DNA of 64,000 nt, from contig JAVTLE010000013.1 of assembly GCA_033439295.1 (NCBI GenBank), forward strand, positions 1,054,001 through 1,118,000, in the 5' to 3' direction. Position numbers and translations under genes: made by a program. Shown here in pieces: positions 694 through 59,743 of the stretch. The DNA is from Deuterostichococcus epilithicus. Lineage: Eukaryota; Chlorophyta; Trebouxiophyceae; Prasiolales; Stichococcaceae. Position 1 is the first letter of the stretch, and every line of letters starts with the position of its first letter. The notes under the pieces are model-generated. The model worked only from the letters and a program-made list of their open reading frames with translations, did no database searches and was not told the DNA's origin.

Positions 694-3600
694 TCACCAC
701 TGGTACTTTGCGGCCACAAACACCTCCTCGTACTGCTGCGCCGCGTTGTCCCAGCTCAGGTCCTGCTGCATGCCGCGCAGCTGGATGGCTCGGAAGGAGT
801 CCGGGTGGTTCCTGCGGCAGGGGCGCGCAACACGCAGCATCAGGGCATGTGCGCTCGAAGTGCCAGGTCGCCAGGACCGCGACGGCGGCGTGCCGCGAAC
901 GGCAGCATGCCGCAGGGAGTGCAGCGGAGCGAGGGTTTCGACATGCACCTGTATGTGTACAGCGCGTCATGCATCGCGCCGCGGAAGGCGCCGCCGTCAG
1001 CGTGGTCGAACGTCCACCCCGTGCCGCTGTTGTTGTGTGGGTCAAAGGGTTGCTGCGCGGACCACAGTGGAAGCATGTCGTGAGAGGAAGTGTTTCGCCA
1101 TGACAGATTTCAGCTTGAAGTGCCAGCGGCGTGTGCATCGCCAGGCCTTAACAGGGTGCAGGGCGCACTGGCAGCAGTTGACGCGCGCAGCATGCGCACA
1201 CGGCAGGGGAGGCGCCATAGCTCTGTGTTCGTGCACGCACGCCAGACAGGGCGCAAGGTGAGGGAGCAGGGGACGCCGCCGCGTTGCGCGCCCCCTGGTG
1301 CCGCCCTCGCAGGCACGACTGGGCAGCAACACGTGGAAGAACAACCCTGACACAGCCCTCAGTGTCAGCCAAAAACACCCTGGAAATGAAACAACAGGCG
1401 CACCACGGTGTCGCGCAGGCCGCCGACGGCGTGCACTACGGGCACGGTGCCGTAGGCCATGGCGTACAGCTGGTTGAGGCCGCACGGCTCGAAGCGGGAG
1501 GGCATGAGCAGGATGTCGGCAGCGGCGGTGATGCGGTGCGCCATCGCTGAGGAGAAGCCCACCCACCCGCGGCACTGGTCCCGCCGGTTGTTTTCCATCT
1601 CCCTGCGGCGCCAAGTCACAAGCGATTCGGCAATGCCTGCTACATCTGAGGCCTCCGATGTTGACACGTCACCCACTGTGCCTGGCGTCCGTGTGTGCCA
1701 GGGGATGGGCGGAGGCAACGCACACTGCCCTCGTTCGTGGGCTGCGCCAGGGGCAGATGCCTAAGCTCCCGGCAAGCGGCAGGCGGAGCACAACACAGCA
1801 AGCTGACGCATACTGGATCCACGGCGTTCGCTCTGCGGGCGAGCAGCCCGCCGCCCACCTCAGCGAGTTTTCGAGGTCCTCACGGCCGGAGCCGAGCAGG
1901 ACGAGCTGGCAGCCCTCGCCCATGAGCCAGTCGTAAGAGTCGCGGATGATGTCCACCCCCTTCTGGTAGTCCAGCCGCCCGATGAAGCCCAGCAGCGGCA
2001 CGTCCGCCCGCACCGGCAGCCCCAGCTCCTGCGATCAAGGTCAAGACAAGGTTTTCTTTTGAAACTTTGTAAACTTTTTCGTAACTTTTTCGGTTTGACC
2101 AGGCGGTCAGCTGGTGCGAGGGGACTGCAGCGGCAGTCCCGACTCCTGCGCGGCCAGAAAGCTTTTCAAAGTGTGCACTGCCCTCTGCTGGTGGAGGCTG
2201 CCCGCACCGGCAGTCCCCAGCTCCTGCGCGGGGCGGGCTTCGTGCCGTGACTCATGCACATCATCCTGGGAAGCCCCGCTGATGGCACGTGTGACTGCAC
2301 TAGAAGTGCTCAACTGCTGGCCCGGTACCTGGACTCACCCCCTCCACTTCAGGCGGAGTTTCCAGCACCACATGCAGCAGGCATTTTCTGCTGGACTCAA
2401 TCCGCGAATGGACTACTGCGCGATATAGTCTGCAGGGGCCGCACCCGCTGCAGCGCGGCCTTGCAGGCGGCCTTGCCCTCTGCGAGGCTGCCAGCGTCGT
2501 AGGTGCGGTAGCCGTCGGACTGGAGGCAGGCGTCCAGCGCGGGCGACCAGTCCCGGGTGTCGATGCCGTTGACGATGCCGCGGAGCTTCCACGAGTGCTC
2601 CCGCAGCACGTGGTCGAGGCCCCAGCCGCCCTCTTGCGTCTGGCACTCCCACGCGTACCTGCGCGTCAGCAGCACTGCAAGCTTTGAAGTTGTGCCGGTA
2701 CCGGACTGCCTTCAGCACACATGGTCCAGGCCTCGGCCGCCTGCCTGCGTCTGGCACTGCTACGCATGCCTGCGCGCCACATCAGGCCATGCTATGTATA
2801 CACATCTCAGGTACGTCAAGCACCTCATGACTACAGTGATGAGCCGAGTGCATAGCAGGCGTTTGGTTGTTCGCTGAACGTGGCACCACCCTCATATGGC
2901 GCTTGAGTGGTTGACAGATGCTGCAAGAGGCCAGCACATAATATGTGCATCAGAAACTGGCAATCGATGGTGCCACACCCGTGGGAGACAGCGACGATGC
3001 GGTGCGCGAGAATGAGGCCCGCTTTGAAGCAGTTCATGTGCGCGCCGCCGATCGGGTCGTCCAGGTAAAACTGCGCATTGCAATCACATCACCAGGTGAG
3101 GTCAGAACTGCTTGGTGATGCTGCCTCAAGCACCGAGATCCGGCGCAGGCATTTGACAGCACAGGCGGGTCAAGCATGTGCGGGACGGCGCACTGCGGCG
3201 TGCGGCCAGCCCCACTGCGCAGCCTCGACCCATGCCCCGCACAGTGCCGGCAACGCGAGGGCATCAAACCCACCGCCTCCACAGGCACTTTCCGTTCGTG
3301 TGCGAAAGGCGGACAACTCACATGGCTGACAGCCAGAGGTCGGGCAGCCAGGGGCGAAGCCGCACCAGGTTTTCGTAGTGTTGCGGGATCTCCATGGGCG
3401 CGAGTTCCGCCATGGGGCCACGCCCCTGGTGCGCCATGTTGTGGATGACCGCCACCGAGCGCGCGTACACCATCTTGTCGTAGTCGCGGTAGTGCGCCTG
3501 CGCAGGGGGCGCGACTGCCGCTTAGTTTCTGACATACTCGACGGAACGAAGAGGTTCCATCCTCAGAGACAAGAGGCGCCTGCACATGCGGCGACTCAGA

Positions 3601-6677: not shown

Positions 6678-9600
6678 CTATTGGCCCACATCCATCGCAA
6701 CAGCGTCGCCGCCGCCGCCCTCATCATCATCGGGGGGCTGCGGCGCAATTTCGCAGCCTGGGCACACATGCAGGCTCTCGTGGATGTACAGGTGGCAGTC
6801 GAAGCAGAAGAGCTGCTTGCAGCCTGTGCACCTGCACGAAGGTCGTAGATGGGGTGTCACGACATGTGTACAGAGGGTGTCACGATGAGCAGCTTTCGCA
6901 GCGCCGCCCTCTCAGCTGACTGACAATGCGCCACAGTAGCAGCCAGTCCCACAGGCGGACGCACCGCAACACGACGCTGGCGTCGCCCTCTGATGGCCCA
7001 GGCCCGGCCAGCCTGCAGCAGCAGGCGTGGCAGGACAGGATCGTCTGACTGCCCGCCGGGGCGTCGCGCGCGGCGGCGTCTCCCTTCGCTGTGCCATCCT
7101 GTCACATCATGTCGCATTGCTTTGTCATTTGACGCGCCCCACGCAGGGTCCACAGCAATCTAGCACAGATACGTGTCGTGCACGGGCAGTTGCCCACCAC
7201 CCGTTCTAGGACCGCGCACATGCTGCGCGAGTGGAGCTTGGGCCCGATGCTGCAAGCCCACAGCCACCTTTCAAACCAGCAGACAGAACAGAAGATTGCA
7301 TCCTTCAGGCTGAGCAACAGAACCATCATGATAGCCTTCTTTTGAATGCAGGCCCGGTCATTGATTTTATTTCAGTTCATTTCATGCGCGCACCTGTGCG
7401 AGGCGGGCGACCTCCGCGGGCGGTACCTCGTCAAAGCCGCGCACCGGGAACAGGTGGTGGTACGAGCGGGCCAGGTGTGGCGACGACACCAGCGTCAGGC
7501 TGCAGATGTGGCACGCCCCCGGAAGCTCCGCCACACGGCCCCTGCAGAAGGAACCCCGCCACTGAATGTGTGCGGTGGCAGCCGGTGTGGCGTGGGAGAA
7601 GCGCTGGATTAGGCCGCAGCAGGCTCTGAGGGTGGTCGATGAGCTGCCCTTGTCGGGCGCTCGGAGCTGTGCAGTGGCAAACCAGTGCTGCGCCCAGGAT
7701 CAGCAAGGTCGGTGGCCACAGTTTGCGATATGACGTTTTGCCGCAAAGCCTAGCCAGAGAGGACAACTCGAGCACCTAGAAAAGCAAACCAGATCCCTCA
7801 CTTGCAGCGTGGGCAGGTGAATCCACCAGACTGCAGCTTGGCGTCCTGCCCGACAAAGGCCTGCCCTGCGGCGCCCTCCGCGTTCCGTTGCGGGAAGCCC
7901 ATGCGCACCTGGAAGCAGGCGTCAGCCGCCGACGTGTTAGATGTGGACAGCCCGAGCCCACTTCGGATCGGCTTGGCGGCACATGGAACTGCTGGATGTG
8001 TCGACTGCCACAGCATTTGTGGTTCACAGCGTCCTGCGCCTGAGCCGCGCAGCCACCGCTCACTTGGTGCTAAGGACAGCCGGATGCCGACGGCAATGAC
8101 AGCGCAAGACGACGATGGCGGAGGACGACAAGAGCGACTATCGAATCGCACCATGGAGGCCGCAGTGGAGGACGCGGGCGTCGGCGGCGGCGGCGCGTGC
8201 GCAGCCACCAGCTCCTGCAGGTGGAGCTCGTCCAGCGCCACGCCGTACACGCCGCCTGTTTCCTGCACACAATGCACTGAGTCATCAGTTCCATTAGGGT
8301 TTGTGAACACGGGACTGCATGCGCGATGCCCCCCGGTCGCGTGCGCCGCCCCGCGCCGCAGGAGTTCCACTCATCTGCCGGCGCGCCGCCTCCTCCGGAC
8401 AGCAGGGATTGCCCTCGGGACCAGGGCAGCGTTCCTCGTGTGTGCGTGTGCCAGCAGAGAGAGGAATGACAGGCAGTCGGACGAGCAAAGCACACCTGGG
8501 TGAGCGTCTCGCAGATGTGGACTTGCGCCGCGAGGCCAACCACCGACACGCGCACCCGGTGCTGCTTCGCCGTCTTCAGGCTGTCCAGGATGTTCCCTGG
8601 GTCGCACGTCGACAGCGCAGACAGCAGCATCAGCACCTGCACCAGCAGCAGCATGCCTTGCTGCATGCATGGCGACGCATGCGAAAGGTGGCAGATACTG
8701 GGCGTGGGAAGCAGCGATGCCAGGCAGCTTGCAGGCTGCAAGCGGCAATTGCAGAAGCGTGCTTGGCACACCTCTCGGTGGCCGTAGGGCGGTATCGACC
8801 TGAGCGTTGCCACTGCGGCGTCCAGGCCGTTCTGCAGGGACGCGTCACCTGATGCCTCCATGTTGCGCAGCCGAGCAATGTGCGCCTCCTGCTCTGCCGC
8901 ACACAGCAGGCGTTTGGCATTCTGCTGCAGCATTCTGTGTGCATGCTTTATGTCCCATCGCAATGCAGACAAATGCATCAGAGGAGGCGTCGTTAGGTTG
9001 GTCGGTGGTTTGTCTGCCGCAGTGCCTGTGCAAGCTTGCCAGCGGTGGGGCAGCAGCAGGTGAGGCGCTGTGGCAAGGTCGTCTGTCGCGTGCTTGATTG
9101 ACACACTGCTGACGTGTGGCAGCAGTCTGAGATTTTGGTCACGCAGTATGGTTTATATGCAAACACACTCCCACCTGAAAATTCGCACACAGATCTGGCG
9201 TCCATCCAACAAACACCCCGCAGGAGCTGTGTGATTCGAGAGCTGGGTCCAGCGACGCACCGGGCTGCCGGACAAGTCTGTCAGGCGCTCCGCCACGCCA
9301 TTGCGCAGCACGAGGATGCCGAGGTGGCTGAGCGGGTTCTGGTCGAAGAACTCCCTGATGAACTGCCGCAGCACACCTGCATGGCAAGACGCCCCAATCA
9401 ACTTGGTTCACCACCCAAAGTGATCGACAGGAGAAATGTTGCTGAAGTAGGTCCTGAGCGTATCCTGCCCTCGCAAGTTGCTAGCAGCAGACCTGGCAGA
9501 CACCACTTCCCGTCATGTAAGATGCTGCTCTCCGGACAGGTGCGCGCACCCCATGTGTTTAAAGGGTTGCAGCATGTAATCAGCTCAACTGCGAAGCGGA

Positions 9601-10378
9601 TCAGTCGGAGGTCGGTCATGCCGGAGGCTGGCGACATTGGAATCGAGAAGTGCGGACGAAGTGCAGCTCGCACCCAGCACTATGGCAAAGCGCGTCGGCC
9701 GGAAGTCAGTCATGCCGGACGCCCGAGACAGATCCACGATGACCTCCAGGTAGCGAATGAGCCCACGCCGGATGCGCGCTGACAGCGCCTTTGTCAGCAG
9801 CCGCCGTCGCTTGGCACGCTGCGCCGCCCGTGGGTCCTGCAGCGACAGGATGTACATCAAGTCCACATACTACATCCACACACCAGCGCTAAAGCCTGCT
9901 ACTCGCAGTTCGTTTATTGTGGTCAAAGACAGGAGGCGAACTAGCAGCCCTGCGGCTGGGCCTGACTGAGGGAACAAGTGGGGGCCAGAGTCGCAGGCAC
10001 GAATTGCAGGCAGGGTGCAGTAACACACGTGTTTCTTAACAGCCCTAATGAAGAAAGAAAGTGGAGGTGGTGGGGTCATGGCAGCGCACCAGCGCGCGCA
10101 GGTGGCCCTGCTCGTCCTCCTGCAGCTCCTCCCAGCTGTGGTCGTCGACATACTCGCGCTCGAAGGCGCTCGCCTCCGCCCCCAGCTCATACTGCGGCCT
10201 GCGCGCGGTGGACAGCAGGTTGGCACTGGGACACCTACACATGCCGCAGTGCTCATGGGGATAGAATGCGCAGGAAACAGTGCGACAGTCGTGTCGCTCA
10301 CTCTTCACCGAGGTCGTCCGACTCGTCCTCCTCGACGTGCGGCGGCGGCTCGCTCGGCCTGATGCCACGGGACGACAT
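6678..10378 (-). CDS. GTF2H2: TFIIH core subunit p44 (SSL1/GTF2H2)
   Basis: This subunit of the TFIIH core regulates the XPD helicase in transcription initiation and nucleotide excision repair in the nucleus. The N-terminus [20 protein letters not shown] is followed by [14 protein letters not shown], the family's opening block. A von Willebrand A-like domain follows: [12 protein letters not shown], then [47 protein letters not shown] and [17 protein letters not shown]. Next comes [15 protein letters not shown]. The C-terminus has the Cys-rich zinc module, with FTCPRCK, then [20 protein letters not shown] and the C4 finger [20 protein letters not shown] ending HVCPGCE. All family blocks are present in order, so the gene looks complete. 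The start is the ATG that opens the acidic leader. It lies head to head with the RS-protein gene. Confidence 0.95.
9591..9723 (-). repeat. Decayed exon-edge copy in a p44 intron
   Basis: The end of the exon coding [13 protein letters not shown] (9685-9723) is repeated at 9591-9629 in the following intron, where it reads [13 protein letters not shown]. By eye 30 of 39 bases match; the period is 94 bases. Confidence 0.85.
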
Positions 10379-11368
10379 GCGCTGCGCCGCGCAGTCGACA
10401 GGCACGCAGGCCCCGCTGGCAGCTCCAAGTGGCCACCGCCTCACCAAAGGTGATGCGGCAGCGTGTAGCTGCAGGCTATTGTGGTCTGATGTTTCCGATA
10501 AGCGAGCACTTGTGGCAAGGCCGGCGAATCAAGAGCCGCATGCACCCACTGAGCGGCAATGAGTTTCACGCAGCTCCGTTCGGCGACCCCCAAATTTTCC
10601 CAGCAAGGAGCTTGTGCTCCGTGTCTAGAAGAGGCTGTAAGAAGGAAGACTTCTATCAACAGGCAGCTTGGGTACTCGTTGAATCAACGGAGGGTGGGAT
10701 CGAACAAGACTCTCTGGCGTGAAGCCGGCGCCCGAAGCTGTGCTGCCGCTTCGCTCGCTAAGAAGTCACGAGACAGAAGTGCCATGGAAACGCTGGTTGA
10801 GTCTTGACTCTTGAGTGCATTGCTGTGTTCTCATGCATGCAAGTGGCAGTCCCATTGCACTCTGGCGCTCAGTGTGCGCTGCGGCACCGCCGTGAGAGCA
10901 CTTCTGCAGAGTAAAGATCAGCTTTCTGATCGCAGCATTGGGTCGGCGAGCATCGGCAAGGCCGCTGCGAGGAGAGCGTCTCGCTGCATCTAGACCTTCG
11001 GCTGCCTCCGGCACCTCCGCCGATCAGCTCCCGCAGCCGAATCAGCGTCGCTTGTGAGCTCAGGTGGGGCTCCTTCTATAAGGCACAACATCGAGCAGCC
11101 GCAACGAGACCCTGCGTGCCGCCTCGCGTTGGCAGGCTGCAGAGGATCCAACTGTTTGGTTGCCCGGTTACTTGTTTCGTGTGCGGCGCTATACACGGCT
11201 CCTGCAGCTGCAGGTGCCAGCAAATTATGCTCTGCATTGATGTACTGAGAGCAGCAGGGCTGCTGTCTTGCGTCTGGATCCAAGCCAAGTTGATGCTGCG
11301 GCCGTGTCGAACATGGGACCGCCTGCATGCAGAGACTTTGATGCGGAGGTAGAGTCCGGTCGGGAGGC
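10379..11368. other. Divergent intergenic region p44 / RS protein
   Basis: About 990 bases separate two start codons on opposite strands, so it should hold both promoters. I see no convincing TATA box, RNA gene or further exon. Confidence 0.5.
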
Positions 11369-14300: not shown

Positions 14301-17300
14301 TGATGCAAATTGACCTCCTGTGTGGCGCTCCTGAAGGGAGGCGCCGGCCAGGAGTCGGACCAGGTGCGCCTCAATGGCGAGATCAAGGGTAATGTCACTC
14401 GCATCCTGCTGGATGTCACCGACACCCTCTTCGGTGCGTGCCCGCCGCCCGCCTCCGCCTCTCACAGCCCGCCTTTCCCGCCCCAACGCAATATTCCGCT
14501 AGCGCACACGCTTTCAATTGCATGGGCGCCTTTGCTTGTGCTGTCTTCTGCATGCTGCTGGCTTGTCTGTCGCACATTGCTGCAAGCATGCATGTCTGTT
14601 GTTCCGTCCATATGCCAGGTCCGATCTCAAAAGTTTCCAGGGGCCTTTGCTGACCCCGAGCCACGACTTTGCTGCGCAGGAGAGATCGCGGCGGAGGTGG
14701 CGCAGGAGGCCAACGGCAGGGCTGGCGCCGGTGGCGCGCCTGCGGAGGGCGAGGTGGTCACAGAGGGCGCCGTGTTGCTCACCGGCGCTGCAGGTTCGCC
14801 CAAAGCCCTTGTTGCTACTGCAATCAGACACTGCATCCAGGACGCAAGAGGCACCTTATGCGCCATTGTTGAGCAGCATAGCTCCGTCCAGGAATGGCTG
14901 AAGTACATGGCAGATCTCGTGCACGGCGGGTGGCCATTCATGCAAGCACTGCCGCTGTGCCGCAAGAACTCGGTTCCAGCCCCCACCCCCCCTCCTTACC
15001 CTCCCCTCCACGAGACAGGCAGCGACTCGGATGGAGACGCCAGCGGCAAGGGCGACGGCGCAGACGCGCTGGGCCTCGGGTACGCGTCTGACGGCGGCGC
15101 CGGCGGTGCGGAGGCAGACGATACTGAGCTGCGAGAGGCGTCTGCTGCGGCGGCCGCCTCGCTGGCGGAGGCGGATGCGGCGGAAGGTGCTTCCGCCCAG
15201 AAGCAGGCTGAGGCAGCAGCGCCTGTTGTGACGACTAGCATCACGCAGACGGGCAGCGGCCGGCTGGCCTTTGCCATCGAGCCCAAGGCGCCGCCCGCCG
15301 ACGGGGACGCCGTGACATTTGCCGCCGGAGACAGGTCTGTGCGGATACTCAGCCTGCCTTGCATGGTGAAACCTGGTTCATGTGCGGCTGGTGACTTTTA
15401 ATACGACTGCAGCAGCTGTCAAGTAGCGGACAGTGGCTAAGGTCCTTCCCTGTGTCGCAGCGCCTGGTACCTGGCGGCCAGCGGAGAGCGCACCAAGTGC
15501 CTCATCGAGTCTGTGGACACCTCGGTGCGGCCCTCACGCATGCATGCCGCCGAGCTGCTTGGCAATCTGTCCACTCTTGAAACTGAGGAAGCGTCTATGC
15601 TGCATTCAAACCCCAACGACTGGCGTGCACCTGGCGCTGCTTTCCCGGCGCCGGCACCACTTCACCACACAGACCAGCGCTGCCGCATCTCGTTTGTTCG
15701 CCTCGGCGTTGAACGCGCCTTTCTTTTGGTCGTCTCCGCCAGGTGGCGCCGCCCTCGTATGGCATCCGACTGGAGGGCGCCGCCACCGTGCGGGAGACGG
15801 AGGTGGGGCGGCTGCTGCGGCTGGGCCCCGACGAGGCGCCCTCCTCGGACGCAAAGCCGGCGCCTGAGCCAGGCCTCGCCGCCAAGTTTGACCTGGCCAC
15901 CGGTGGCAAGGTGCGGGAGGCTGCACAACCCTGCTGAAACCCTCAACCCTGAGCTTGAACCTGCTTGTCGGCGATGCGCACCGCTCTCCGCCGTGAGCTC
16001 GACTTCGCCACCGGCGGCAATGAGCAGCCTCCTTCTGCGGCGACCTGCTGTGGACAGTCCCTCCTTGCAGCTCCGCCAGCGCTCTCACAGCCTTGAGGAT
16101 GCGTAACGAGTTCAGGGTGTGATGAAGGGGCTTCCCACAGCATTCAACTTTATTTCGGCCCCTTGCCCTGTCCTCTGTGACTGCTGTTCGCGGTCGAGCC
16201 TGCTCGCGTGCTGGCTTGCGATCGCATAGCGAATGACAATGACAGCACGCAGTGCGTGTGTTGACCTGGTTCTTGTGACCTCATTGTGATCTCAGGCCGG
16301 CACCGCCAAGGGAGGCAAGGCGGCCGGCGCCGGCGGCAAGGCGGCGGCCAAGCACCACGACCCCAAGGCCTTCAAGCTGCAGGCGGGCATGCCGCACAAG
16401 TACCCGCCGGCCTCCGTCAAGAAGGAGGCGGCCAAGCCGGCGGCAGCGGTGACGGGCGCCGACAAGGCCGCTGGGGACAAGGCCGAGGCCGTGCCCGCGC
16501 CCGGGGTGAGCACAGCTCATTCTCAAGCCCCCTGTTGGGCGACCTCATCGCACTCCTTGTCGAGTGGCACCTCACTGCCTCCGATGGTCGGACCACTGCA
16601 TGGAGAGGCCGCCCCATGCTGCGTGTGGGCACTGCAGTACACTTCAGGCCGCCAGCGTCGGGCTGCCGCGACGGGCCAGCTGCTGCTCACTCTTCACCCG
16701 CAGGTGAGCAAGACCGCGGCGCTGGCGGCCGCCGCGGCGCTGCTGCCGGACATGCCGCTTCCGGTGCCGCCGCCGCTGCCGGCGCCGCCCGTCAAGGTGG
16801 ACGCTCCGTCCAGCAGCAAGGAGCAGGCGCCCGACGGGCGGGACTCCGCCAAGAAGACCGACAAGTGCGCCCTCTTTGATCCGAGCCCTCGGACCCTCTC
16901 AAAGCCTCGGCTGTAGTCATGTGCATCCTTTGCATGTGTGCCCCGGGCACACCGCTCGACTGGGCGGCATGCCACCTCCGGCCCCGCCTGCGCAGCCAGG
17001 CCAGAGGTATCGGGACGTGGCCCGGGCTCTTTGCCAACAGCAATCTGCACAAATCTGGCCACCAAGTCATCGGGCGTGGCTGCATCGCAGGAAGCGGACG
17101 CGCAGCGAGTCGCGGGAGCGGGCAGAGGACGAACGGCGGGAGGCTCGCATCCGGGACCGCCTCAAGTCGTCCAGCCGTGACGGGTGCGGCCCTGAGCTCT
17201 TGACATCTCCCCGGAGGCCTCTCCGCCGTTTGCTGCAGCATCAGAGACTTTGCTTCGTCACACGACCGCTTGGAGGGCACTGGCAGCACGCGCTCTAGCA

Positions 17301-20966: not shown

Positions 20967-25020
<4,054 letters not shown>

Positions 25021-29492: not shown

Positions 29493-32400
29493 TCATTCAT
29501 CGAAAGAAGGCACCTCGGTCTCTGCGCCGTACACGTGGATCTTGTTGAAGCGCCAGAAGCTATCGTCGCCCGGCAGCTTGCCCTCCTTGAACATTTCCTG
29601 TGAAAAACCGACAAACCGTCGGCGTGAGGAACCTTGCCACATGATGTCTGCGCATTCGTGACGTTTGGTGGAAGCTTCAGACAGGATGGGGTGAAGCAGC
29701 GGCGATGGGGCCACCCCAGCTAACACTACCCTCGTCTGAGCGCAGGAGATTCACACCAACGCAGCTACCGATCAGCAAACACGAATGCGTCAGGATCACG
29801 TTCCGAGGGGTGCAGCACTGCGCAGGCGAAGCACGCTTCAGCATGGACCTGCAAGGAGCGCCTGGGACTCTAGGGAATGAAGGGGGTTCCATGCAGGCAT
29901 GGACACATTGGGGTTTGCGTTCCCAAGGTGCGGTGCGAAATCAGGTGTCGATGCCAGCGCGTGCCTGGAACTCGGGGAACTCTTGCTGCACCTCCGACAC
30001 GCTGAAGTAGTTGATGGGGAACTCGTTGCTCAGCATGATGCCTGCGATGCGCCAGACGGGCGCTTCAGGCGCTGCTTGGAAGGATGTGCTCGGCGGCTGA
30101 TTGTCACACCACCTGCGCTGCCGCCTCAGCAGGTGGTGCCTGTCTGCCCTGCGTTGCAGGGCTCGCCGAGGCTGCATCCAGGATGATCAACCAGCTGCTT
30201 GACGGGACCTGAAATGACTTTCTCCGCCTGCTGCGCGTCCCACCCCAGCTCGCTGAAAAAGTCAATTCGTCACAGCCAATCTGGCGAGGAGGCGCACCCT
30301 CGGTGTGGCGGGTGATCTTCTTGGTGAGCAGGAAGGAGAAGACGCGCTCGATGATGGTCTCCGGTTCCACGCCCATGGACTCGTAGAATTCGGCTCCACA
30401 GATCACGCGGTGCTTCGTCTCCCGCTCGTCAAAGGTCACCTGCGCCGCATGAGCGCACTGCCGCATCAGCATTGGCGTGCGCGCACATGCGTGGCGCAGT
30501 GATCGGCACACGATGCAGCAGAAGGCCTGCTCGGGGGCAGGCCCCATTGCATGTGCGGCTTGAGGGTGCAGCATCCGTGTAGCAATCAATGCCGATCACA
30601 CACGCCGCTGCACAACCGCCGCCTGCCAGGGACAACTCTGCAGCGCCGCATCGCGCACGATTGCAACCATCGGGAGACAGCCCACAGGTGCACGAGAGGC
30701 AAGATGCCCCCACCAGCACGTCGAACATGAAGCCGCCGTTGGTCTTGATAGTCTGAGCGAAGAAGAGCTTGAAGTCGCGCGGCTGGTCATCGACCGTCGT
30801 TGGCACGATGCGAGTCGCCTTTTGGATGAGCGCCACGCGCTCCTTCTCCGCATCCATCGCCTCCCTGTCCAGCGCCTTGGCCGGCAGGAAGTCCACCTGC
30901 AGGGGCAGGACGGGACAAAGACATGGCTCAAAAGACGGACCCAACAACCGTTTTCAAGTGCTACCCGTGCAGTCAGCATCCATCGCCCTCCCGGTCAGCG
31001 CCTTGGCTGGCAGGCAGCAAGTCCACCTGCAGCTCGAGGAAAGCGTATGAACCTACATGACAGGTATACTTTTCGAGGCCTGGCAGTGGTTGGGTGCCAC
31101 CCGCTCCTTCACCGCATCCACGCCAGCAGCCCGGCGCCCGGTCCAGCGCCGCGGCCAGTAGGAAGGCCGTCCGCAGGGAGCAACAGTGAGCCTTTGCACA
31201 GGCTACTCGGCAGCATGCCTAGGCAGCGCAGCCCCCATCGGCTGCTTCCCATCCCAACCCCTGCAATGGAGGTTGGGATGATGCGCTGTGGGCCGCGCGC
31301 CATCTCCAAGGCAGGTGCATGCCTCAATGAGATGTGTCCTCCACTGGCCGCATGGGATTCCGGATGCTGCTTCCACCGACGCGCAGATTCTGGCATCTCG
31401 GCTGCAGCTCGGACCAGAGACCACACGTGGCAGCCCGCAGGCGGCGAGACCGACCCAAGGGGGAAACCCAGCGGGAGGAGAATAGCAGGGCAGGGGTGCA
31501 CCCTAAACCCCAAAACCTACCTTGCCCTCCTCCAGCAGCTCGGGGTTGGGCACGAACTCCTCCACAGCGCCGCGGGTGCGCATCGCGGCCAGCTGCGTCA
31601 GCACCTGCGACTTAGCCGCCTCCAGCTTGCCGCGGGCGCTGATGGCGCCGCCGTCCACTGGCCGCTCCCACTGCGCCCGCTCCATCGCCACTGCAGGACG
31701 CGGGAGGCGCGGGTTCGGGGGATGCGGCCGTCGCGCCCTGATGCGGGGAGCAGGATCCATCTGCAGCATGCGACACCAGGGGGAACGCGGCATGCTTGCT
31801 ATCTCTTGAAGGGCCGCGACGGCCCGGTATCAGAGACTCACGTTTGTTGCCGATGGGCGGGCCGCCGACCTCCTCAAACCACGCCTCCCTGATGGCCAGC
31901 ATCTCCTTCTGGTCCAACTTCGGCAAGTGCGCAGCCCTGCGGCCACCACGGTGCGGAGGCTGAGGTCGAGGCGATCAGCTGGCGTTGACGCCCGCTCAGC
32001 AGCGAGTCGTTGGCTCAGAAACTCTCAAACGATTACCATGCGCCAGGCTTGTCAAGTACTAGACAGGCGGTCAGCGGGCTCACTTGTGATAGAAGACTTT
32101 GTCCGGCCGCCGGCCGAAGACCGTGCGCAGGGAGTTGCGGAAGTCCTTCGAGAAGCCTACGTACTGCAGCTTCTTGTTTTGGTCGAAGATCGCAAACACG
32201 CTCGCCTCTGTGCCCTCTGGCACCTCTGGATCGATGTAGCCCTGCGCACACACCAGCGTCGAGGATGTCAGGCCGTCCACTCAGAGGCGATAAAACACCT
32301 TCAGGTGAGGTTACACCGATCGTTGCAGCCTCGGCACGCATGGTGCAAGCAGCAAAGGCTGGTGCGCAGGCACATACGCCGCCGCTAGGCTGTGGCGCAC

Positions 32401-37377: not shown

Positions 37378-40300
37378 TCACTGCAGCGGCGCCGCGCCCA
37401 GCGGCTGCTCCGAGAACAGCTGGCTCTCCTTGACGCCCTCGATGGCAGCGATCTCCTCCTTGACGGCGGAGCGCGGCCGCGAGTCGATGCCGATGGCCAT
37501 GATGGCGTCCTCGCCCTGCTTCGTCCGGCACACCTGCAATGGCCAAGTTGACATCGGGCTCAGATGCTGGCACAGTATCCACCAGGCACACAGGAGGATG
37601 TACCCAACCCTCTGGCGGACATCACCGCAGCGGGTTGCAGGCGTCAGGTTCGAGTTGGAAGCTCGGACCCATCAATGGGAGACGACATGCGATGGGAAGG
37701 CGCCAGTTGAATCGCACCGTCATGAAGCTGATGTTGACGCTCTCGCGGCCCAAGATGTTGGACACCGCGGCGATGATGCCCGGCTTGTCCTCCTGCCGCA
37801 CCAGCAGCACATAGCCCTGCGTACCAAGGAAACAGTCTCGCACGAAAGTACGCCTATTCTTTATTTTGTATGCTTCGCATCGCCCAAGCAGGTCCAGCCC
37901 TTGCCAACAAGCACTTTGCAAGTGGTTCGCAAGGCGTGTGCGATTATGGAACTCACTTTGAGAAGGCTGGGGTCTGAACAGGCGAATTCGGACGCGATGT
38001 GGTCCCTCCATGTGCCCAAGACAGTCTTTCGCAAGTGCAGCCAGCAGCTGCCGTGTGGAGCTGTGGCACACCTCGAGCGTAACGTCCACGTCAAAGGTGC
38101 CCAGCTTGGCGAGGAAGGGCTTGCCATCGCGAACGACACCCGACACGCAGATCTTGTTGCTGCGCGGGTCCACGGCCGCCGAGAAGCGGGCCTTGGGCGC
38201 GCCCAGCGACACCGTCAGCGCCGTCAGCACGTCCCTGCGCGTGCACGTGCGGCGGGTCAGGCAGCTGCCACGGCCTGAGACGCGACTGCATCGGCGCGAG
38301 CCAGATGTCCTGTGCACAGCGCTGGGGGCAGCCCTGTCCATGGCCATGTGTCGACAGTGCTGTGCAGCGCTCGCGTGCGACATCAAACAATGCGCTGCTA
38401 AGCTGACCTCCTGCTGTCTGGCCCCGAACGACCTCGCGGCTCGAACTTGCCTTGTAGCCGCAAGCGCGGGCTGCCGCCACAGCGCCGAAGCCAAGGCAGC
38501 TGGACCGCAGGCCATGCAGCATATTTTCGAGCACGAGCATCACTCACTTGCCGGACGATGGCCGCGTGGTCTCGGTGATCTCCAGGCCCCGGTTCTTGGC
38601 CAGCAGGTCGGCGTTGACCAGGTTCACCGTCGCCGTGGTCACCTGCTCCAGGATGCCCTGTGGCGAATCGGGGGAGGAACAGTGTCAGCTGCGCCACCTG
38701 TCAGCCCCATCGTGTTTGCGATTGGCGCATGCACCCACGCCGCGCCAGTTGGACGACGTCAACCCTTCCTTTACCAGGATCAAGCGAGGCAGGAAGGACG
38801 TTTTCTTGCCCACTACCCGGGTGCGGAGAGGTGTGGGCCCTGGACACACATGACTTGCGCCTGGGCCAGCGGTGCAGCCGCCAGCTCATCGGCGGGGCTT
38901 AGATTGACAGAAGTCCATCGGCATCAACGACAGAGGTGTACCTTGATGACCATGGCGCGCAGAAGGCGGGTGTCCAGGTCGTCGCCGCGCGGCGAGTCGT
39001 AGGTGATAGTGATGTCCGTGAAGCCGGACTCGCCGACCAGCTGCACCGCGGTGCGGCCCAGCCCCGCCGCCAGTGCCACGTACGGCTGCAGCTCCGCCAG
39101 CACCTCCGGCGGCATCATCGGCGCATTCACCGCCGTCGCCGCCATCTCGCCCTGCACGGGCGGGGGCGTGGCTGGGTTGGGATGCAATACGGCCACTGCG
39201 CAGCCGGCTACAGAAGAGGCGCTGAGCCTGCTGAGCAGCTGGGCCCAGACAGGGCAGCAGCCGCACCGGCCGGCCGGCTGTGGCAGGCCCATTCGGTGCC
39301 GCTTGCGGCAGACGCTCCCCCCTTCCCTGCTGGCGAACCTGCCAGAGGCGAGGCGAGCGGGCGCCCCTCATACAGGCTGCCTCAGCCGAGCGGCCAGATG
39401 CATCGAAATGGGAGGCTCCAGGTGCCATTTTGAGTAGTTTGTCGACCGGACGGCCCCATGTGCCACCCCCCTGCCTCTGGCACGCTCAGTCGACATCTGG
39501 AGAGAGGAAACCGAGTGCCCACCTTGAGCGCGGAGACGACGACCTCAGCGACCTCGACCGACACATCCTCCTGCGCCTCAGCGGTGGAGGCGCCCAGGTG
39601 GGGCGTGCAGATGACGTCCGGGCGGTTCACCAGCGGGTGGTCCGCCGGCGGTGGCTCCACTGCGAACACATCCAACGCCGCCTGCACGTGCGGGTTGCGC
39701 TCAGCGTGACAAGGTGCCGAGACAGGGGGGGAGCGCGCGCAGAAAGGAACGCCGCCGCCGGCGGCTCCACCGCAAACCTGGCAGGCGCCGCCCGCGGCAG
39801 GTGCAGGCACGACTGGCGTGTGTTGCGGTCGGCCCAGCACTGGGGCAGAGCCGAGAGCTCGACAGCCTGCCCGAGTTGAATAGGGCGAGCCTGCGCGGTG
39901 ATGTGTAGACCACCTGCGCAGTCGAGGGTGGCACCAGCTGCCTGCTGAGAGAGTCACATTGCCGTTCCAGGGCTGGTCATACCTGCGCGACGGCGCCAGA
40001 GTCCAGGGCGCGCGCCAAGGCGGCGTCGTCGATGACGCCGCCGCGGGCGACATTCACGATGCGTGCGCCCTTCTTGATCTTTGCGTACGCCTCGTCGCCA
40101 AACAGGCCCTGCAGGTGCGACGTGCAACAATTGGAAGGTGGAGGCTGGGTCGTCCAGGAGCGGCGTGCGGAGGGTGCGGTCGGCTGGCGTGCACATGAGC
40201 GCGCAGAAGCAGGTGCGAGCCCAGCTTTGGCAACTGGGCACCGCAGGTGTACACCTTACGCAGGACCGGCAGCCTGTCCAGAAAAGCGCAGGCGCCAGAT

Positions 40301-41269: not shown

Positions 41270-41340
<71 letters not shown>

Positions 41341-48856: not shown

Positions 48857-51800
48857 ATGGCGTCCTCTTACCCGCTGCTGGACAACAAGGACCTGCTCAT
48901 GTGCCTGAAAGAGATGGGCGTCTCGCTCACAGCTGAGCAATTGGCAAAGCCGACGCCAGACGTCGTGCGCAACACCTACGACTACCTGGTCACGATGCTG
49001 CTAGGCGTCACCAGGTGCGTCAGCACACCTACAGGCCGGTTGTGCGTCTCGCTGATGTCGGGTGAAGCAAAAGCATGAAGCAGCAGAGGGGCAGGGACTG
49101 GAATGCATCAGTGCTGGCAATCGTAGCTTGATCGGCAAGCATGCCAAACGCGATTCTTGACTGGCTTCCTCGACGCAGCACACACCGTGCGGACTGCTCT
49201 GGCGCAAGCAGCACACTGAACATCGCCACAACTTGTGCCTCATCGTGCAGAGAGGAAATGGACCAGCCGGTGTTCGAGGCGATTGACGAGCTGGAGTACC
49301 CGGAGCTGTACGACGAGGCGATTCCGATCCTCACGTTTTTCAAGTACATACGCAAACTCATGGGCGCCGCCGGGTACCATGACATCTCCATGCGGGTCAG
49401 CTCAAACCCTCTGGAGATGGCCAAACCCTTCTAGACGCTCTGGACCTGATGAATAACTGTCCAGCCTATGTCGGCATTGGCTCACTGCAGTGTACCATCA
49501 CTTCGAAACACTCTCCTCGGCTTTGTAGCTGTCGCAGGAGCAGTAGCCGCCACGGCGCCGCCAGCTGCGGCACTCGCACTGCCATGTGTCAGTCACTGCT
49601 GAGGCGTGGCACTGCCTTTGCAGGACCTGACGAAGCCGGAGGAGCACCGCCTCCGGCGGCAACTGAGCGCCGTCGTCAACTTCGCGCGCTTCCGGGAGGG
49701 CAAGCTTGAGCTGTACCTGGAGTGGCAGGCGGAGTCGGAGGAGCTGCTCGAGGAGCAAGCGCAGCTGGCGCAGACGAACGCGCAGCTGGTGCGGCGTCTG
49801 AAACCTCCCTTCATTCCGGCTGTTTGTTCTTATCGGTTCTGCTTCATCTCTGTGTCCTGTTCCCGTGGTCCTGTCTGTGAAACAGCGGGAGGCAACTGGC
49901 CGGCCTGCCGCGCCTATGTCATGTTTGTCCCAAGTAACAAGCTTTCGCAGGATGCAGGCAGAGGGCCAGGCAGCCGCCCTTCGCTGCCGTTGCAGTAGCC
50001 CTCAGGCAGATGGCGCCTCGCCTCGTCCATGCTTGCAACTTGCTGCAGACGCAAGCCGCAGCAGGGTCTGGGGAACCCAGATAACCTCTCTGAGCAACTG
50101 TCTGGCTGTCGTGTGCAGAAAGCGGCCCTGCAGCAGATGGAGGAGGAGCGAGCAGCTCAACAGCCGGTGAGTCACTGCCGCCAACTGCAGCAGCCAGCTG
50201 TTCTGCCTCTCGCATTCATGACCTGCAATGCATCTACGTCTGGCAGGCCGCCTGACTGCCTCTGTACATACGGCTGGCGTCCCTGCGGGATCCGAAAGGC
50301 CATCGACAAGGATGGACCTGCTCGCCCCACTCGAATGCTCATGGCCTGCTCATGCCGCATGCGCGCAGGAGGTGGCGCGACTACGAGCTGAGACGGACGA
50401 CATATGCACAGAAAACTCCCAGCTGGCGGCCGAGCAGACGCAGCTGCAGCAGGAGGTGGCACTGCGGCATGTCCCCCGTGCCTCGTGTGCAAGTCGAGCC
50501 GGGATTGTGCAATGCAAGATCGCCTGTGCTCTCGCAAAGCGCGGGCATGGGATTTGGGCCCTAGTCTTTCTTGCCCTCTGCAAACCACGTCTTATTGCCA
50601 CTACAGGCATCGTATAGCGCCATGTCCCGCCTCGCGCAGGTGGCCGCGCTGCAGGCAGAGACGGCGACACACGAGCACGAGGCGCGGGAGGCGCAGTTGC
50701 AGCTGGCGGCGGAGACCGAGGAGGCCAACCGCCTGCGCGGCCAGATCGTGGAGGTGGGGTGCCGGTAACGTGACTTGGGTGGCAGGCTCTTGTGGAGCGG
50801 GCTTGCGGTAAATATGGTGGTATGGCGGCTTGCAGTCGGGGCAGTGAGCGCCAGGCAGGGCTGACTGGAAGGAGGATCGAATGCATCAGCGTTGGCCGAG
50901 GCGGAAGCAAGCAGATGGCGAGCTAGCAGGTGCACATCCCCGAGCGGTGCCAAGTCTGCTGCCGAAAGCAACGGCGTGGCATCGAAACTCCTTATCTGCT
51001 GCCGCGCAAAAGCTCCGCAGCAGCGTGTCACCCAGCAGCTGCGGCTGTCCAATGCCGCGCACGTGAGGAGCTATGCCACATCACTTTTCTATTGACGAGC
51101 CGCAGGCGCTGGCACCACTGCTTGATGCAGAACGGTCAAACAGCCCATGTCAGAAAGGGTGGCCGCAGTCGCCGAAGGAGCTGCTGCTGAGCCTGGAGGA
51201 GCTGCAGGCACGGGCCGCACCCTCCACCCAAGGTGCAGCATGTTGATGACTCAGGCTCTGAGTTGCCAGTCGCGATGTCCTGCAGTCGCCTGAGGAGCTG
51301 CTCCGGAGCCTGGAGGAGCTGCAGGCGGCCGTGGGCGCAGAGCGAGAGGCGGCAGCACAGGCGGACCGTCGCAGCCGTGAGCTGCACGCCCGCCTGGAGT
51401 CCATCGCCAAGGTGCGTGCGGAGGACTTGCAGCCATGCATTGGAGCTCTCATGGCAGTCTGCAGACATATGTCAGTGCCGCCGCAGCTGCCGGCTGGCTC
51501 CATGGGCGCCATGGAGCGGCTGGAGTGGGCTAGGTCAGACACCACAGATGCGTGCACATGGTGCACGTGCACATGCACTGTCGACCGCGCTCATGTTCCA
51601 GTACTGAACCGGGCGGCGCTTCCACCAGGTGGAGCAGCAGCTGGCGGGCGCCATGGAGCAGCTGGAGGGGCTGGGGCGGGACATGGAGAAGAAGAAGGCC
51701 GTCTCGCGCCGCGTCAAGGCCCTGCGCGCCGACATCGCCGCCCAGGTGCCGGCCGCCGCGGCTCTGCTGTGCGCCGATGTGGGCGCCGCGGCCATGCAGG

Positions 51801-53090
51801 GCGCCTGTCCGTATGGCACCGTTTGCACACCTGTAACTTTTACACACGTGGCTGCGCTACACGAGCTGCTGTGGTGCCATCCTGTGTGCCCTGGCGGGCA
51901 CTCGCCTTGTGCGTAGGCGGAGGGGGCTGAAAAAAGGCCAAGAGGCGGACAGATTGATGTTCCAGACCCTGATCCCTGCGTGTTTCGGTGGCCTGCACAG
52001 GAGCACGAGGCGGCGCAGCTGCGCACTGAGCACGAGCACCTGACGCGGCAAAAAGAGAATCTGCAGGACAGGATCGCCCGCCATGAGGAGCAGGTGCAGC
52101 CCGGAAACAATCAATAAAAACAAATGATAACAACACTGAGCTCCGCACCCCTCAGGGCCTAGGCTTTCACCAGTTTCCCTGCCGGCTGCACCCCAGAGCG
52201 GTCGCCATAATGCACACACGAGCCCATGGCCCCCAAGCCTGAGCGGTGATGCACATCAACCTGCGACGAGCTGATGTGCGCAGAGCAAGCTGAAGCGGGA
52301 CGCGGCGGCGGCGCAAGTGGAGCAGCAGCAGAAGGAGAAGGAGGCCATCCAGGCGGACAACGCCGCCACCCTCGCCAAGCTCACCGAGCACGACTCCCTG
52401 GTGCGACTGCGACTCTCGGTCTGCAGAGCCGGACCAGATGTTGGATCGGTTGGCCCGCTGCGTGGCGGATCAGCCAGGCGAAGCCGCCTCTCTCAGCGCA
52501 GCTGGCATCTTGTGCGTTGTCAGTTCTGCGTGCAGCATTAGAGATTCTGTTCCGTTCCCGCATCGAACGGCCTGCTGAGGAGTGGGTTCCCCGATGCGCG
52601 CGCCGCAGAAGCGGTCGCTGCAGGAGCAGGTCACGGAGCTGGAGGCGGCGCACGCGACGCAGAAGGAGAACGTGCTGTCGCAGTACCAGGCCCTGCTGCG
52701 CCAGGTGCGCCGTCGGTTCTCCTATCCACATCCGTTTGGGTCTAGGGTTTGTGGAGCTGAGCGCAGGGCGTGCCGCGCCGCTGTACTTGTGTCACACGCG
52801 CCGCCTGCGCCCCTGCAACGTCGTGTCACAGCACCCCCACGTCGTCCATGCCATATCGATGAGGCGCCACCGTGCCTGCTGCTGTTGGACGAGCAAGCGG
52901 CCGTGTTGTCTGGGCCCCGAACGTGCATCGAGACGCCATGACACTGAACAGTGGATGCGTCAAACCCCATCACAACTGTCGATGTACACAGGTGGACGTG
53001 TACCATGCCAAGCTGGGCGACGTGATGCACCCCAAGTCCATCAGCCACACGCCGCTCAAGCCCATTAGGCACAGCGTGCAGCCGCGGTGA
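48857..53090 (+). CDS. NUF2: Kinetochore protein NUF2
   Basis: This is a subunit of the NDC80 complex, which joins kinetochores to spindle microtubules. The N-terminal calponin-homology-like domain starts at ATG 48857: MASSYPLLDNKDLLMCLKEM, TPDVVRNTYDYLVTMLLGV, MDQPVFEAIDELEYPELYDE, AIPILTFFKYIRKLMGAAGY. Next comes DLTKPEEHRLRRQLSAVVNF with FARFREGKLELYLEW, the family's neck block. The rest, across about ten short exons, is heptad-rich coiled coil (for example EVARLRAETDDICTENSQLA, EEANRLRGQIV, LEGLGRDMEKKKAVSRRVKA, KRSLQEQVTELEAAHATQKE). It ends KSISHTPLKPIRHSVQPR at 53090. One coiled-coil exon near 51290 has a partly duplicated neighbour. Identity rests on the N-terminal half and is strong. 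Exact borders of the middle exons are approximate. Confidence 0.93.
51165..51335 (+). repeat. Near-intact exon-edge copy in NUF2
   Basis: The exon start SPEELLRSLEELQAAVG (from 51287) is preceded 117 bases upstream by a copy reading SPKELLLSLEELQARA, also behind a GCAG acceptor. About 44 of 50 bases agree by eye, so this is among the youngest of the set. Confidence 0.88.
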
Positions 53091-56188: not shown

Positions 56189-56893
56189 AAGGCCAAGCTC
56201 ACGGTGTCGGGCGTCGTTCACGTCGTGCCTCACCCGAACGTTTCGCTGAATGTGTGGATTGGCATGTCGGTTGACTCCCTGTGCTTGTCAGTGATCACAG
56301 CCCGTCCTCAAGAGACTTGGGACCCTGTGCAGGATGTCAGAAGCTGTCGAGGCGCGGCAATAACCACTATTTCATATGCACCCAATGGAATGACATCGTA
56401 AGCAAATCGATGTGAGCAGGCTGAATCATAGCCTGAATCATAGGTCGAAGCAATATGAGGGTGAGCTGAGTTGCCTCGGACTGAACGTGCTGTGCTGTGT
56501 TCTCCCGCGCCAATGGCGCACAGATCTCCCGCCATCTCCATCACAAGCGATCGCCAAACTGGCCACCACACTTTCGAAACACAGAGACCTTGGTGGATGT
56601 TGGGACTATTGCAAAGAGTGTCAAGGAACGACATCTTGTATCGCCCAGCGCTCGCAGCCGTCGCTCGCATCTCTAGCAGTACATCAGTGCCAAAAATGGG
56701 AGCAGAACTGGCGGATCCGCCCGCCAAGGCGACTGTGAGCGCTGCAAATGGCACCCCGGCACGCCAGGTACCACGGATCACATGGCGATCATCCCCCATG
56801 CGAAGTTGAAGGCTTGCAAACAAGCCAAAGTGATCTGCGCACAACTCAATGCCTATGCAGCACTCCGCTCGTGGATAACGTGCGTGCGATGCA
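56189..56893. other. Divergent intergenic region retropepsin gene / FPS
   Basis: About 700 bases lie between opposite starts. A GTG-initiated extension of the left gene to 56233 is open but unlikely. I see nothing else. Confidence 0.5.
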
Positions 56894-59743
56894 ATGCAAT
56901 CTGAACAGGAGTTCATGAAGGTGTACGCCATGCTGCGGGAGGAGCTGGCGCAGGACCCGCTGCTTGGCTCGCAGCCGCCCGCCGCGCGGCAGTGGCTGAC
57001 CGAGGTGCGGCCTGTCACCAGCCGCCTCGAGCGGATCAGTCCTTCATCAGGCTCTGCGCCATTACCTAAACGTTTTTGCAACATATAGATCCGCCCAGAG
57101 CGTGGCCATCACTCTGAGGTTGTCAGTCCAGCAGCTGATGTGGGTTTGCGCGCCGACGCGCAGATGCTGGACTACAACGTCCCAGGCGGCAAGCTCAACC
57201 GCGGCATGGCCGTCCTGGACGCGCTGCGCGCATTGAGGGGCGAACAGGTCGGTGCAGCCCCATATTGCTGGGCGCCTGATTGTCTGCCCCTGAGCCTATG
57301 CAATTAACGCCAGGGAGCATCAGATGTGACGGCGCCAGCCCATGCATGGCCTCACCCGTCCTGCCTGTCCCTGCAGAACGTGCAGCCGGAGGAGGTATTG
57401 CAAGCAAACATCCTGGGCTGGTGCATAGAATGGGTGCGCCCTGGCACCGCATCCGCGAGAAAGAGCGCTGCGTTTACAGCACAGATGCCCTTGCCCTGGC
57501 GACTGCATCTGGCGATTGGCATCTGCCCGGATGGTCCACTCACTCGTTTTACGGCTGTCCGTCGCCAGTCTGGATCGATGCCAGCGACAGCAACATGCTT
57601 GGCTGAGTTGTTGAAAGTGCATCGCCATGCGTGCCTGCAGCTGCAAGCCTTCTTCCTGGTGGCGGATGACATAATGGACAACTCCATCACGCGGCGAGGG
57701 CAGCCGTGCTGGTACCGCGTCCCCAAGGTAGGCATTCTCCAGTCGCTCTTGCTCTCAAGCAGCAAATGCGGCTCAGGCTGCACCCCAGAGCTCAGCGGCA
57801 ATGGCGCACAGTCAGCGGCCTGTGCCTCAACAGACGTTGCAGAGCTGAGAACGGCTTGACCGCCAACCAAGGTCCTGCTGCTGCTGCCATTGGCTGCCAG
57901 GCAGTGGCTGCGCCTGCGCACAGGCTCCCCCAACAGGGCTTCACACCTGCAAGACTCAGCAGCTGGTGGCTTCCCTGCTGAGCGTGATCTCTCCCGAGAA
58001 CTCTCTTGCACAAAGCAGTGGCATGCCGCACGGGTAGCCGGGCTCAATAGCGATACACGATGGCATCCACTCCGGCCCACAAAATGCAATGGGCGTCCGC
58101 ACAGGCAGCCGGGCCTGGTGGCGATGCACGATGGCATTCAATTCGGCTCACTGAAAAGCAATGGCAATCGCACGAGCAGGTGGGCCTGGTGGCGATCAAC
58201 GACGGCATCGTGCTGGAGTCGTGCATGTACCGCGTCCTGCAGAAGCACTTCCGGGGGGCGCCCTTCTACACTCAGCTGCTGGAGCTCTTCCACGAGGTGT
58301 GCCGCGACTGACGCAGGGACTCGCCGCACACAATTTCTATTGCTCACCCAGCCAGCAAACTTTTTGGCAGGCGGTCTGTGCAGGTACTGCTGCAGCCGAG
58401 GCACTGCACTTTCTAGCAGCAGTCCGAATGTTTCGTGGTGGAATGCTCACAGACGACGCACCAGACCAGCCACGGGCAGCTGCTGGACCTCATCACAGCT
58501 CCCATTGGCACGGTGCGCCCTTTGTCGAAGGTCCCTTTGTGAAGGAAATGCAGCAGTGCTAGCCTTGTGGCTGTTGGCACCTGCACCATCATCACAGGGG
58601 CAGCTGCATGTTGCATCACTTCACACGCGCGCGAGACATTCGGTGCGCTCCGCGCCAGCACCTGGACCACACCCACCGGACACCAGCACACGCAAGTCCT
58701 GCTTACTGACACTGACCAGCGCCCGCCGTCGCAGGTGGACCTCGAGCGGTACACGATAGATGCCTACATGCGCATCGTGACTTACAAGACCGCCTACTAC
58801 TCCTTCTACCTGCCCGTCGCCTGCGGCATGCTGATTGGTGGCGTGTCCGACGACGCGTCCCTGGACCTGGCCAAGGACATCTGCGTGCGCATGGGGCAGT
58901 ACTTCCAGGTGCGTCCTCCACCTCCCGGGGCAGCGCTTCTGCCTCCAGCACATCCTTGCGGATGCGCATTGGTTCGCATCTGTAGGCGCCGCCGCTGTCC
59001 GGCTCCAATAATTGTGACGCCCTCCAGGGCTGCGAGGCCAGCGTGTGCATTGGCAGGTCCCGCCAGTGTCATGGCGCTGTCTGCAGTCCCGAGTCTGCTG
59101 ACGGAAAACCTCTGTGTGGGTGCTTGTCCTCGCGTCTTGCCTGCACGGCAAGCCTTTCTCGATAGACCTCAAACTTTCCCTCCCTATTGCTGCTGCAGAT
59201 ACAGGACGACTATCTGGACTGCTATGGCGATCCAGAGGTCATCGGCAAGATTGGCACCGACATCGAGGACAACAAGTGCTCCTGGCTGGTAGTCCAGGCC
59301 CTGGAGGCCGCTGACGCCGACCAGCGGCGCGTCATCGAGGTGGGGCGCTGCTCTGCTCGACTTTTCAAGCAGGATCAAGCAGGGGGGGCGGCGGCGGGCG
59401 GCTGAGCGGCGGAAACCGTCCCGCCTGTAGCTCCGCACCCCGACCCTCTTGGCTGCACGCTGGAAGCATCACAGCGGCTCGGACGTCTGCAGCGCATCGA
59501 GCGCAGTCAGAGACAAGTCTGCAATTCGAATTCCGACCCCTGCAGGAGCACTATGGCAAGCCGGACGATGCAAGCGTGCAGAAGGTGAAGGCGCTGTACA
59601 ACGAAATGGGCCTGGAGCAGAAGTTTCTGGACTATGAGCAGGCCAGCCACGAGCGGCTGACGAAGGAGATCAGCGAGCAGTCAGCGCTGCCGCCTGGTGT
59701 CTTCACGCTGCTGCTCAACAAGATCTACAAGCGCAAAAAGTGA
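56894..59743 (+). CDS. FPS: Farnesyl diphosphate synthase
   Basis: This trans-prenyltransferase condenses dimethylallyl and isopentenyl diphosphate to farnesyl diphosphate, the precursor of sterols and prenyl groups. Nine exons are readable: [79 protein letters not shown] (first Asp-rich motif DDIMD); [56 protein letters not shown] with [34 protein letters not shown] (second motif DDYLD) with [15 protein letters not shown]; and [20 protein letters not shown] to the end [10 protein letters not shown]. Aromatic residues just before the first motif ([11 protein letters not shown]) fit a farnesyl-length product. A TGTAA signal, used for polyadenylation in green algae, lies about 60 bases after the stop. 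Intron 4 contains three tandem exon-edge copies. Confidence 0.97.
58028..58218 (+). repeat. Three-unit 71-base tandem repeat at an FPS exon edge
   Basis: Units start at 58028, 58099 and 58170, an exact 71-base period. The third holds the working acceptor and the exon start [11 protein letters not shown]. The second still reads [10 protein letters not shown] behind an acceptor-like GGCAG; the first is more worn. Confidence 0.92.

Follow-up and report, generated by a model that had tools for sequence, protein, structure and literature searches.

Copies of exon edges inside introns of Deuterostichococcus epilithicus: probable short local duplications and a preference for exon edges

The window studied here is a stretch of 64,000 nt from the green alga Deuterostichococcus epilithicus (contig JAVTLE010000013.1, positions 1,054,001 to 1,118,000) with a G/C content of 57-68% per 4 kb. 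Among the predicted proteins checked, Pfam matches were obtained to Ssl1/TFIIH p44, starch synthase, Nuf2 together with low-molecular-weight phosphatase, and polyprenyl (farnesyl diphosphate) synthase (FPPS). An earlier note on this window had pointed out that eight of its introns contain partial copies of the adjoining exon edge. Here we find that such copies are not confined to the window, and that the duplications behind them form, or stay recognisable, several-fold more often at exon edges than in intron interiors or intergenic DNA. Intron lengthening and the origin of cryptic splice sites are old questions, for which transposons or random mutation are the usual answers. In our sample 38 of 451 introns (about one in twelve) carry traces of one simple local event, and since these traces can be dated, its rate, tolerance and decay become measurable in a single genome. 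Small local duplications seem to lengthen introns here.

MATERIALS AND METHODS

Our sample comprised 244 kb of the 46.79-Mb genome (21 contigs), i.e. the 64-kb window and 180 kb more. Of the latter, 100 kb is a single stretch of contig C1 taken as ten adjoining 10-kb pieces, and eight other contigs contributed 10 kb each. All counts refer to this sample unless the window is named. Exons and introns were predicted by a two-strand hidden Markov model (HMM), which was self-trained on the 244 kb of sequence alone and in which some neighbouring genes are fused. It returned 464 introns with a median length of 241.5 nt and exons with a median of 118 nt, the consensus being near CAG/GTGCG at the donor and YTGCAG/G at the acceptor (the slash marks the splice site).

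In the edge test, each exon edge (80 nt) was aligned with its own adjoining intron at a cut-off score of >=36, and mispaired introns as well as dinucleotide-shuffled introns served as controls. Thirteen of the 464 introns were excluded beforehand (short-period repeats). This left 902 edges, of which 164 were dropped as well (repeats, exon edge <25 nt, or intron <60 nt), so that 738 edges were tested. The probe test used 70-nt probes and the same threshold. Simulations of random tandem duplication took the indel ratio as measured, let ages be uniform and set exon drift to 0.2 or 0 of the intron rate; they used 313/366 repeat-free introns.

RESULTS

Exon-edge copies exceed chance expectation

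Forty-one of the 738 edges matched their own intron, compared with ~2.9 expected from mispaired introns. For acceptor edges we found 26 matches among 371 (1.6 expected from mispaired and 1.5 from dinucleotide-shuffled introns), and for donor edges 15 among 367 (1.3 and 0.0, respectively). Nine of the matching edges lie in the window and 32 outside. An independent repeat scan (offsets 40-400, score >=20) returned 153 matches, against 1-2 in each of five shuffles; 60 of the 153 were left after masking of short-period repeats. The self-alignment against shuffled introns that the earlier note had proposed thus gives a clear excess when run on the 244 kb, and it is confirmed that exon-edge copies within introns are real and extend beyond the window.

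All eight window introns described before were recovered with their offsets (Table 1), and a self-comparison of the window shows local repeats at offsets 71, 94, 111, 117, 126 and 264 at the same places. Seven of the eight score >=36; in one of these, 30897-31520, the nearer copy (offset 126) was taken from the repeat scan. The eighth (2659-2978) comes from the repeat scan; it does not enter the edge count whole because a doubtful 24-nt exon (2721-2744), called right on the copy, interrupts it in the gene model. Two further introns, 51412-51628 and 63456-63938, also score >=36. The count of six acceptor-side and two donor-side cases was reproduced for the window, although the prevalence of acceptor sides is milder in the whole sample (26 versus 15, Fisher p = 0.11).

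Unit size, arrays and intron length

As had been described for the window, the copies usually include the splice site: on the acceptor side 24 of 26 matches begin <=5 nt from the exon start, and on the donor side 13 of 15 end <=8 nt from the donor. When aligned with gaps to the full exon, they reach up to 110 nt into it (mean 61). A limit of 28-57 nt, suggested by ungapped seeds (26/31 <=60 nt versus 42-62% simulated), was dropped because of this longer gapped reach.

The spacing between exon edge and copy is narrow. Offsets of 94-128 nt account for 27 of the 41 edges, and the periods described earlier were recovered; the offset of 195 falls outside this main cluster. A scan at offsets 30-1500 placed 31 of 49 non-exon-exon repeats at 80-139, with most of the others near multiples, a few of them at about two or three times this distance, and one beyond 360, and the aggregate autocorrelation of the introns revealed no period other than the repeats already found. 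A deeper reach of the copy into the exon is accompanied by only a slightly larger offset (slope 0.36 +- 0.15, n = 30), which fits a unit of set length. At some loci the copies form arrays (positions 62556-63145 and 10251-10820 in the joined stretch of C1, and 57728-58179 in the window); in the first of these, three intronic units precede the exon, each containing an AG together with the exon's first 46 nt.

Introns with copies are longer than those without (median 437 versus 234 nt; Mann-Whitney p = 3e-11), in agreement with the lengthening proposed before. They are also more often in phase 0 (27/38 versus 220/413; three phases 27, 3, 8 versus 220, 101, 92, chi-square p = 0.046).

Decay of the inner copy

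The copies cover a range of ages and show no coding constraint. Mismatches are distributed almost evenly over the three codon positions in gapped alignments (.248/.247/.259), and in ungapped cores the values are.235/.197/.273, with.272 at fourfold sites. The small excess at third positions in the cores (.273 versus.216 for the first two) arises because the exon copy itself slowly changes too. Indels occur at an ordinary frequency (63 gap openings versus 402 mismatches in 2099 columns, 81% identity), and the lengths of identical runs fit an even decay (3/41 with P < 0.05). These data bear out the proposal that the inner copy decays into intron. The same lack of patchiness led us to reject short-tract gene conversion, and since decay is even and blind to codons, both selection and conversion are disfavoured as keepers of the copies.

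Decoy splice sites are left behind, as the earlier note had supposed. Of 21 acceptor-side copies, 18 have an AG <=3 nt from the expected place; 11 of them match ordinary acceptors in score, as opposed to 18% of random intronic AGs. Under strict scoring the decoy AG is retained in 18 of 28 acceptor-side copies, which is similar to exon dinucleotides (0.62), and selection to keep or to destroy it was rejected on these grounds. Splicing at the decoy would leave the reading frame open and intact in just 2 of 24 acceptor cases; the outer splice site is therefore presumably the one in use.

Preference for exon edges

With equal probes, matches were found for 24/306 exon starts and 14/303 exon ends (38/609 in total), but only for 3/336 of the last 70 nt of introns, 2/327 of the first 70 nt and 2/256 of intron middles (7/919 in total). 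The ratio of edge to intron probes is ~8 (Fisher p = 6e-10). No match was obtained with the 279 intergenic probes, and when exons were compared with themselves 10 of 135 probes matched (3.6 expected). Formation or persistence of the duplications is thus really specific for exon edges.

A 116-bp tandem duplication with 117/118 identical positions (L005 7304-7537) lies wholly within a predicted intron and belongs to the few young intron-only cases.

DISCUSSION

The explanation we lean towards, and hold with some reservation to be the probable one, is that local, mostly tandem duplications of ~110 bp straddle splice sites, after which the inner copy is retired and the intron lengthens. The outer copy of the splice site would remain in use, so that the protein is unchanged while the intron gains one unit. 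The inner copy, i.e. a decoy splice site with roughly 25-110 nt of exon sequence, would be spliced out and decay as ordinary non-coding DNA, and repeated rounds would produce small arrays and ever longer introns. The duplications themselves presumably originate from errors of repair or replication.

Several observations weigh against this explanation. A tandem unit that crosses an acceptor must double the preceding intron sequence too. Only 6 of 27 loci showed this intron part in recognisable form, whereas three simulations gave 14.1-17.4 (binomial 0.001 to 1e-5); a stricter global test found it in 5 of 27, and a second test on a larger set in 7 of 37. Higher indel rates lowered the simulated visibility of the flank to no less than 14/27. 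Mean identity at positions -5 to -20 is 0.38 (28 cases) compared with 0.51-0.62 in simulations, with which the exon side agrees. The copy at L018 2127-2157 is identical in 31 of 31 positions and has no matching flank on either side. Furthermore, in the best-preserved subset the dependence of offset on exon reach has a slope of 0.54 +- 0.25 (n = 11), by which simple insertion is not cleanly excluded. Finally, the simulations predict an edge/intron ratio of 1.14 or 1.24 (exon drift 0.2 or 0), far below the one observed; in the model a frozen exon gives edge copies merely a small advantage in visibility. Two further ideas were tried and rejected: the spacer is not exon sequence from beyond the copy (2/36), and copying from spliced mRNA, with the copy running into the next exon, left no sign (2/35 above the 95th percentile of the null).

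Several of these points lend some credit to a process that copies exon segments bounded by a splice site into the adjoining intron ~110 nt away, or to one by which such copies are preserved in recognisable form as native intron of equal age disappears. Besides the high edge/intron ratio (about 1.2 predicted), it would account for the abrupt drop that identity shows at the splice site (~0.7 at -4, 0.43 at -5), for the lack of intron-flank homology at most loci, and for cases such as L018 2127-2157 and L016 434-478, in which high identity of the exon part is found with no homology of the flank. On the other hand, the whole tandem unit is visible at about six loci, and the ~110-nt spacing fits a unit of set length. 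Even decay, ordinary indels and a nearly absent codon pattern also speak against upkeep by selection or short-tract gene conversion, and with just two or three very young intron-intron duplications a comparison of birth rates has low power. We therefore regard such edge-specific copying or upkeep as a tentative possibility, clearly less probable than local duplication across splice sites. The same tentative standing is given to its stronger form, in which a duplication process aimed at exon edges repeatedly lays splice-site-bounded ends of ~25-110 nt about 110 nt into the intron, often without the neighbouring intron sequence. If true, edge-aimed duplication would drive intron growth and supply strong decoy acceptors.

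The earlier note took tandem duplications crossing an exon border to be tolerated while the spare copy decays; taken alone, this means that duplications strike at random. This interpretation stands as far as the copies, their offset arrays, their decay, the decoy sites and the longer introns are concerned, and the duplications visible within exons are in line with it. It would however predict similar numbers within introns and intergenic DNA, where 7/919 and 0/279 were found. Since the predicted ratio is 1.14-1.24 and the observed one ~8, tolerance of random duplications alone is insufficient. The age structure offers no rescue: with ages fitted freely, intron-only duplications still reach just 0.04-0.15 of expectation, with a likelihood ratio of 9-19 (3, 2 or 1 cases counted as pure), and the comparison of the youngest cases is weak, resting on two or three intron-intron events. 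Taken alone, this interpretation appears unlikely to us. The edge preference may come from duplication steered by gene structure, from a copying process restricted to exon edges, or from an unusually fast loss of native intron.

The closest precedent we found, as far as excerpts of the papers cited in this and the following paragraphs allow comparison, is the RdRp gene of potato, in which a tandem duplication across an intron-exon boundary gave rise to a new intron and a small exon (PMC4974935). As in that gene, the duplications described here cross the boundary and double the acceptor signals together with the start of the exon. In potato a single gene is affected, whereas here dozens of examples differing in age lie within 244 kb, and their inner copies seem to be intron throughout. 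Were the inner copy instead a real mini-exon, bounded by the decoy acceptor on one side and by a new donor within the copied exon piece on the other, donor-like sites would mark its inner end. Sites with a score >=4 are indeed found there in 4/20 acceptor-side copies versus 7% at random intron places, and the gene finder itself called the 24-nt exon 2721-2744; yet no excess exists at lower thresholds (9/20 versus 47%, 5/20 versus 24%) and the mismatches lack a codon pattern, so that we consider intron gain of the potato type very improbable.

Tandem genomic duplication of exonic AGGT segments is a described route of intron gain (PMC3443670, PMC2891723). Common to both systems are small tandem duplications with splice-like sites that alter gene structure while the protein is spared. 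In AGGT intron gain, though, a new intron receives its two ends from the duplicated AGGT, whereas here an existing intron is lengthened. All 41 copies keep a distance from the opposite splice site (73-526 nt on the acceptor side, 105-452 nt on the donor side). As no copy is closer to it than 73 nt, the duplicated-AGGT model does not apply, and the distinction from it that had been drawn before is upheld. Introners are dispersed families, for which fast-evolving lineages, green algae among them, are reported as the main carriers (PMC9860276). They resemble our repeats in that sequence repetition is connected with introns, but here the repeats are private to each intron. Only four inter-intron matches were found among 464 introns (E <= 1e-4), and the FPPS intron repeat (window 58050-58209) has a single match in the whole genome, namely itself. 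That the copies are relics of introns born by either of these two known sources of new introns (PMC3443670, PMC9860276) is thus scarcely credible, since an AGGT birth would put the copy at the opposite splice site and Introners would be expected as dispersed families.

Break repair can make small tandem duplications, and local head-to-tail duplications are described as the commonest type of short insertion (<100 bp) in human DNA (PMC8355091). Our cases share the local head-to-tail adjacency, the narrow unit size (94-128 nt in 27/41) and the arrays at multiples, most of their junctions being strongly decayed. They differ in their size of ~110 nt and in their placement, which is non-random and favours edges about eightfold; no exon-edge bias is given in the excerpt of PMC8355091. 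In a search of the open-licence literature, neither a genome-wide collection of exon-edge copies lying within introns nor an exon-edge bias of duplications came up.

The eightfold preference is a sharp anomaly. Either gene structure (transcription, chromatin or spliced RNA) directs where duplications arise, or sequence derived from exons survives longer in introns than native intron does; each of these causes, if true, would be news for the field of intron evolution.

Coordinates in the window and further repeats

Table 1. Introns of the window with copies of an adjoining exon edge (window positions; strand in brackets)
Intron	Source	Source feature	Copy	Match	Remarks
2029-2444	2006..2028 (-)	start of starch-synthase exon 1859-2028	2200..2223 (-)	23/23, one gap, offset 195	CAG precedes copy
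2659-2978	2607..2668 (-)	start of starch-synthase exon 2445-2658 and last intron bases	2718..2779 (-)	50/62, offset 111	
9377-9673	9662..9730 (-)	end of exon 9674-9836 and first intron bases, donor side	9568..9636 (-)	49/69, offset 94; edge alignment 41/56	decoy donor gone (TT)
15911-16295	15875..15909 (+)	end of exon 15743-15910, donor side	15984..16020 (+)	28/35 with gaps, offset 109	
30897-31520	30823..30907 (-)	start of exon 30714-30896 and last intron bases			two intronic copies
30897-31520, nearer copy			30973..31032 (-)	85% over 61 columns, offset ~126	
30897-31520, farther copy			31087..31182 (-)	71% over 92 columns, offset 264-274	
39682-39982	39642..39685 (-)	start of exon 39523-39681 and last intron bases	39752..39795 (-)	32/44, offset 110; edge alignment 22/26	
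51063-51285	51282..51331 (+)	acceptor and start of Nuf2-gene exon 51286-51411	51165..51217 (+)	41/45, offset 117; edge alignment 42/46	decoy CAG retained
57728-58179	58168..58208 (+)	acceptor and start of farnesyl diphosphate synthase exon 58180-58296			three copies, Tandem Repeats Finder (TRF) period 71
57728-58179, upstream 71-nt units			58026..58137 (+) (58026-58096, 58097-58137)	82/112 identical at offset 71	
51412-51628	51633..51683 (+)	start of exon 51629-51820	51485..51541 (+)	44/50 with gaps, offset 148	flank homology p = 0.002
63456-63938	63412-63447 (+)	end of exon 63288-63455, donor side	63654..63688 (+)	28/35, offset 242	weak

Other repeats of the sample deserve mention. At L010 2563-2800 a duplication across a donor has an offset of 117, a multiple of 3, and 96% identity over 56 nt; the model uses the downstream donor, and both copies may be coding or alternatively spliced. 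At L015 4537-4970 a 36-nt exon and its 87-nt intron have apparently been duplicated in tandem (about 119-123 nt; EE 68/87 and II 81/101 identical). Two neighbouring introns of one predicted gene have a 70-nt inverted repeat with 95.7% identity in common (L005 9216 to L006 146). Within the window, a 63-nt repeat at 17497-17670 (87% identical, offset 111) lies in a predicted coding repeat region (exon 17480-17683) and was masked from the counts, and a perfect (GT)n run of 65 bases is found at 41272-41336.

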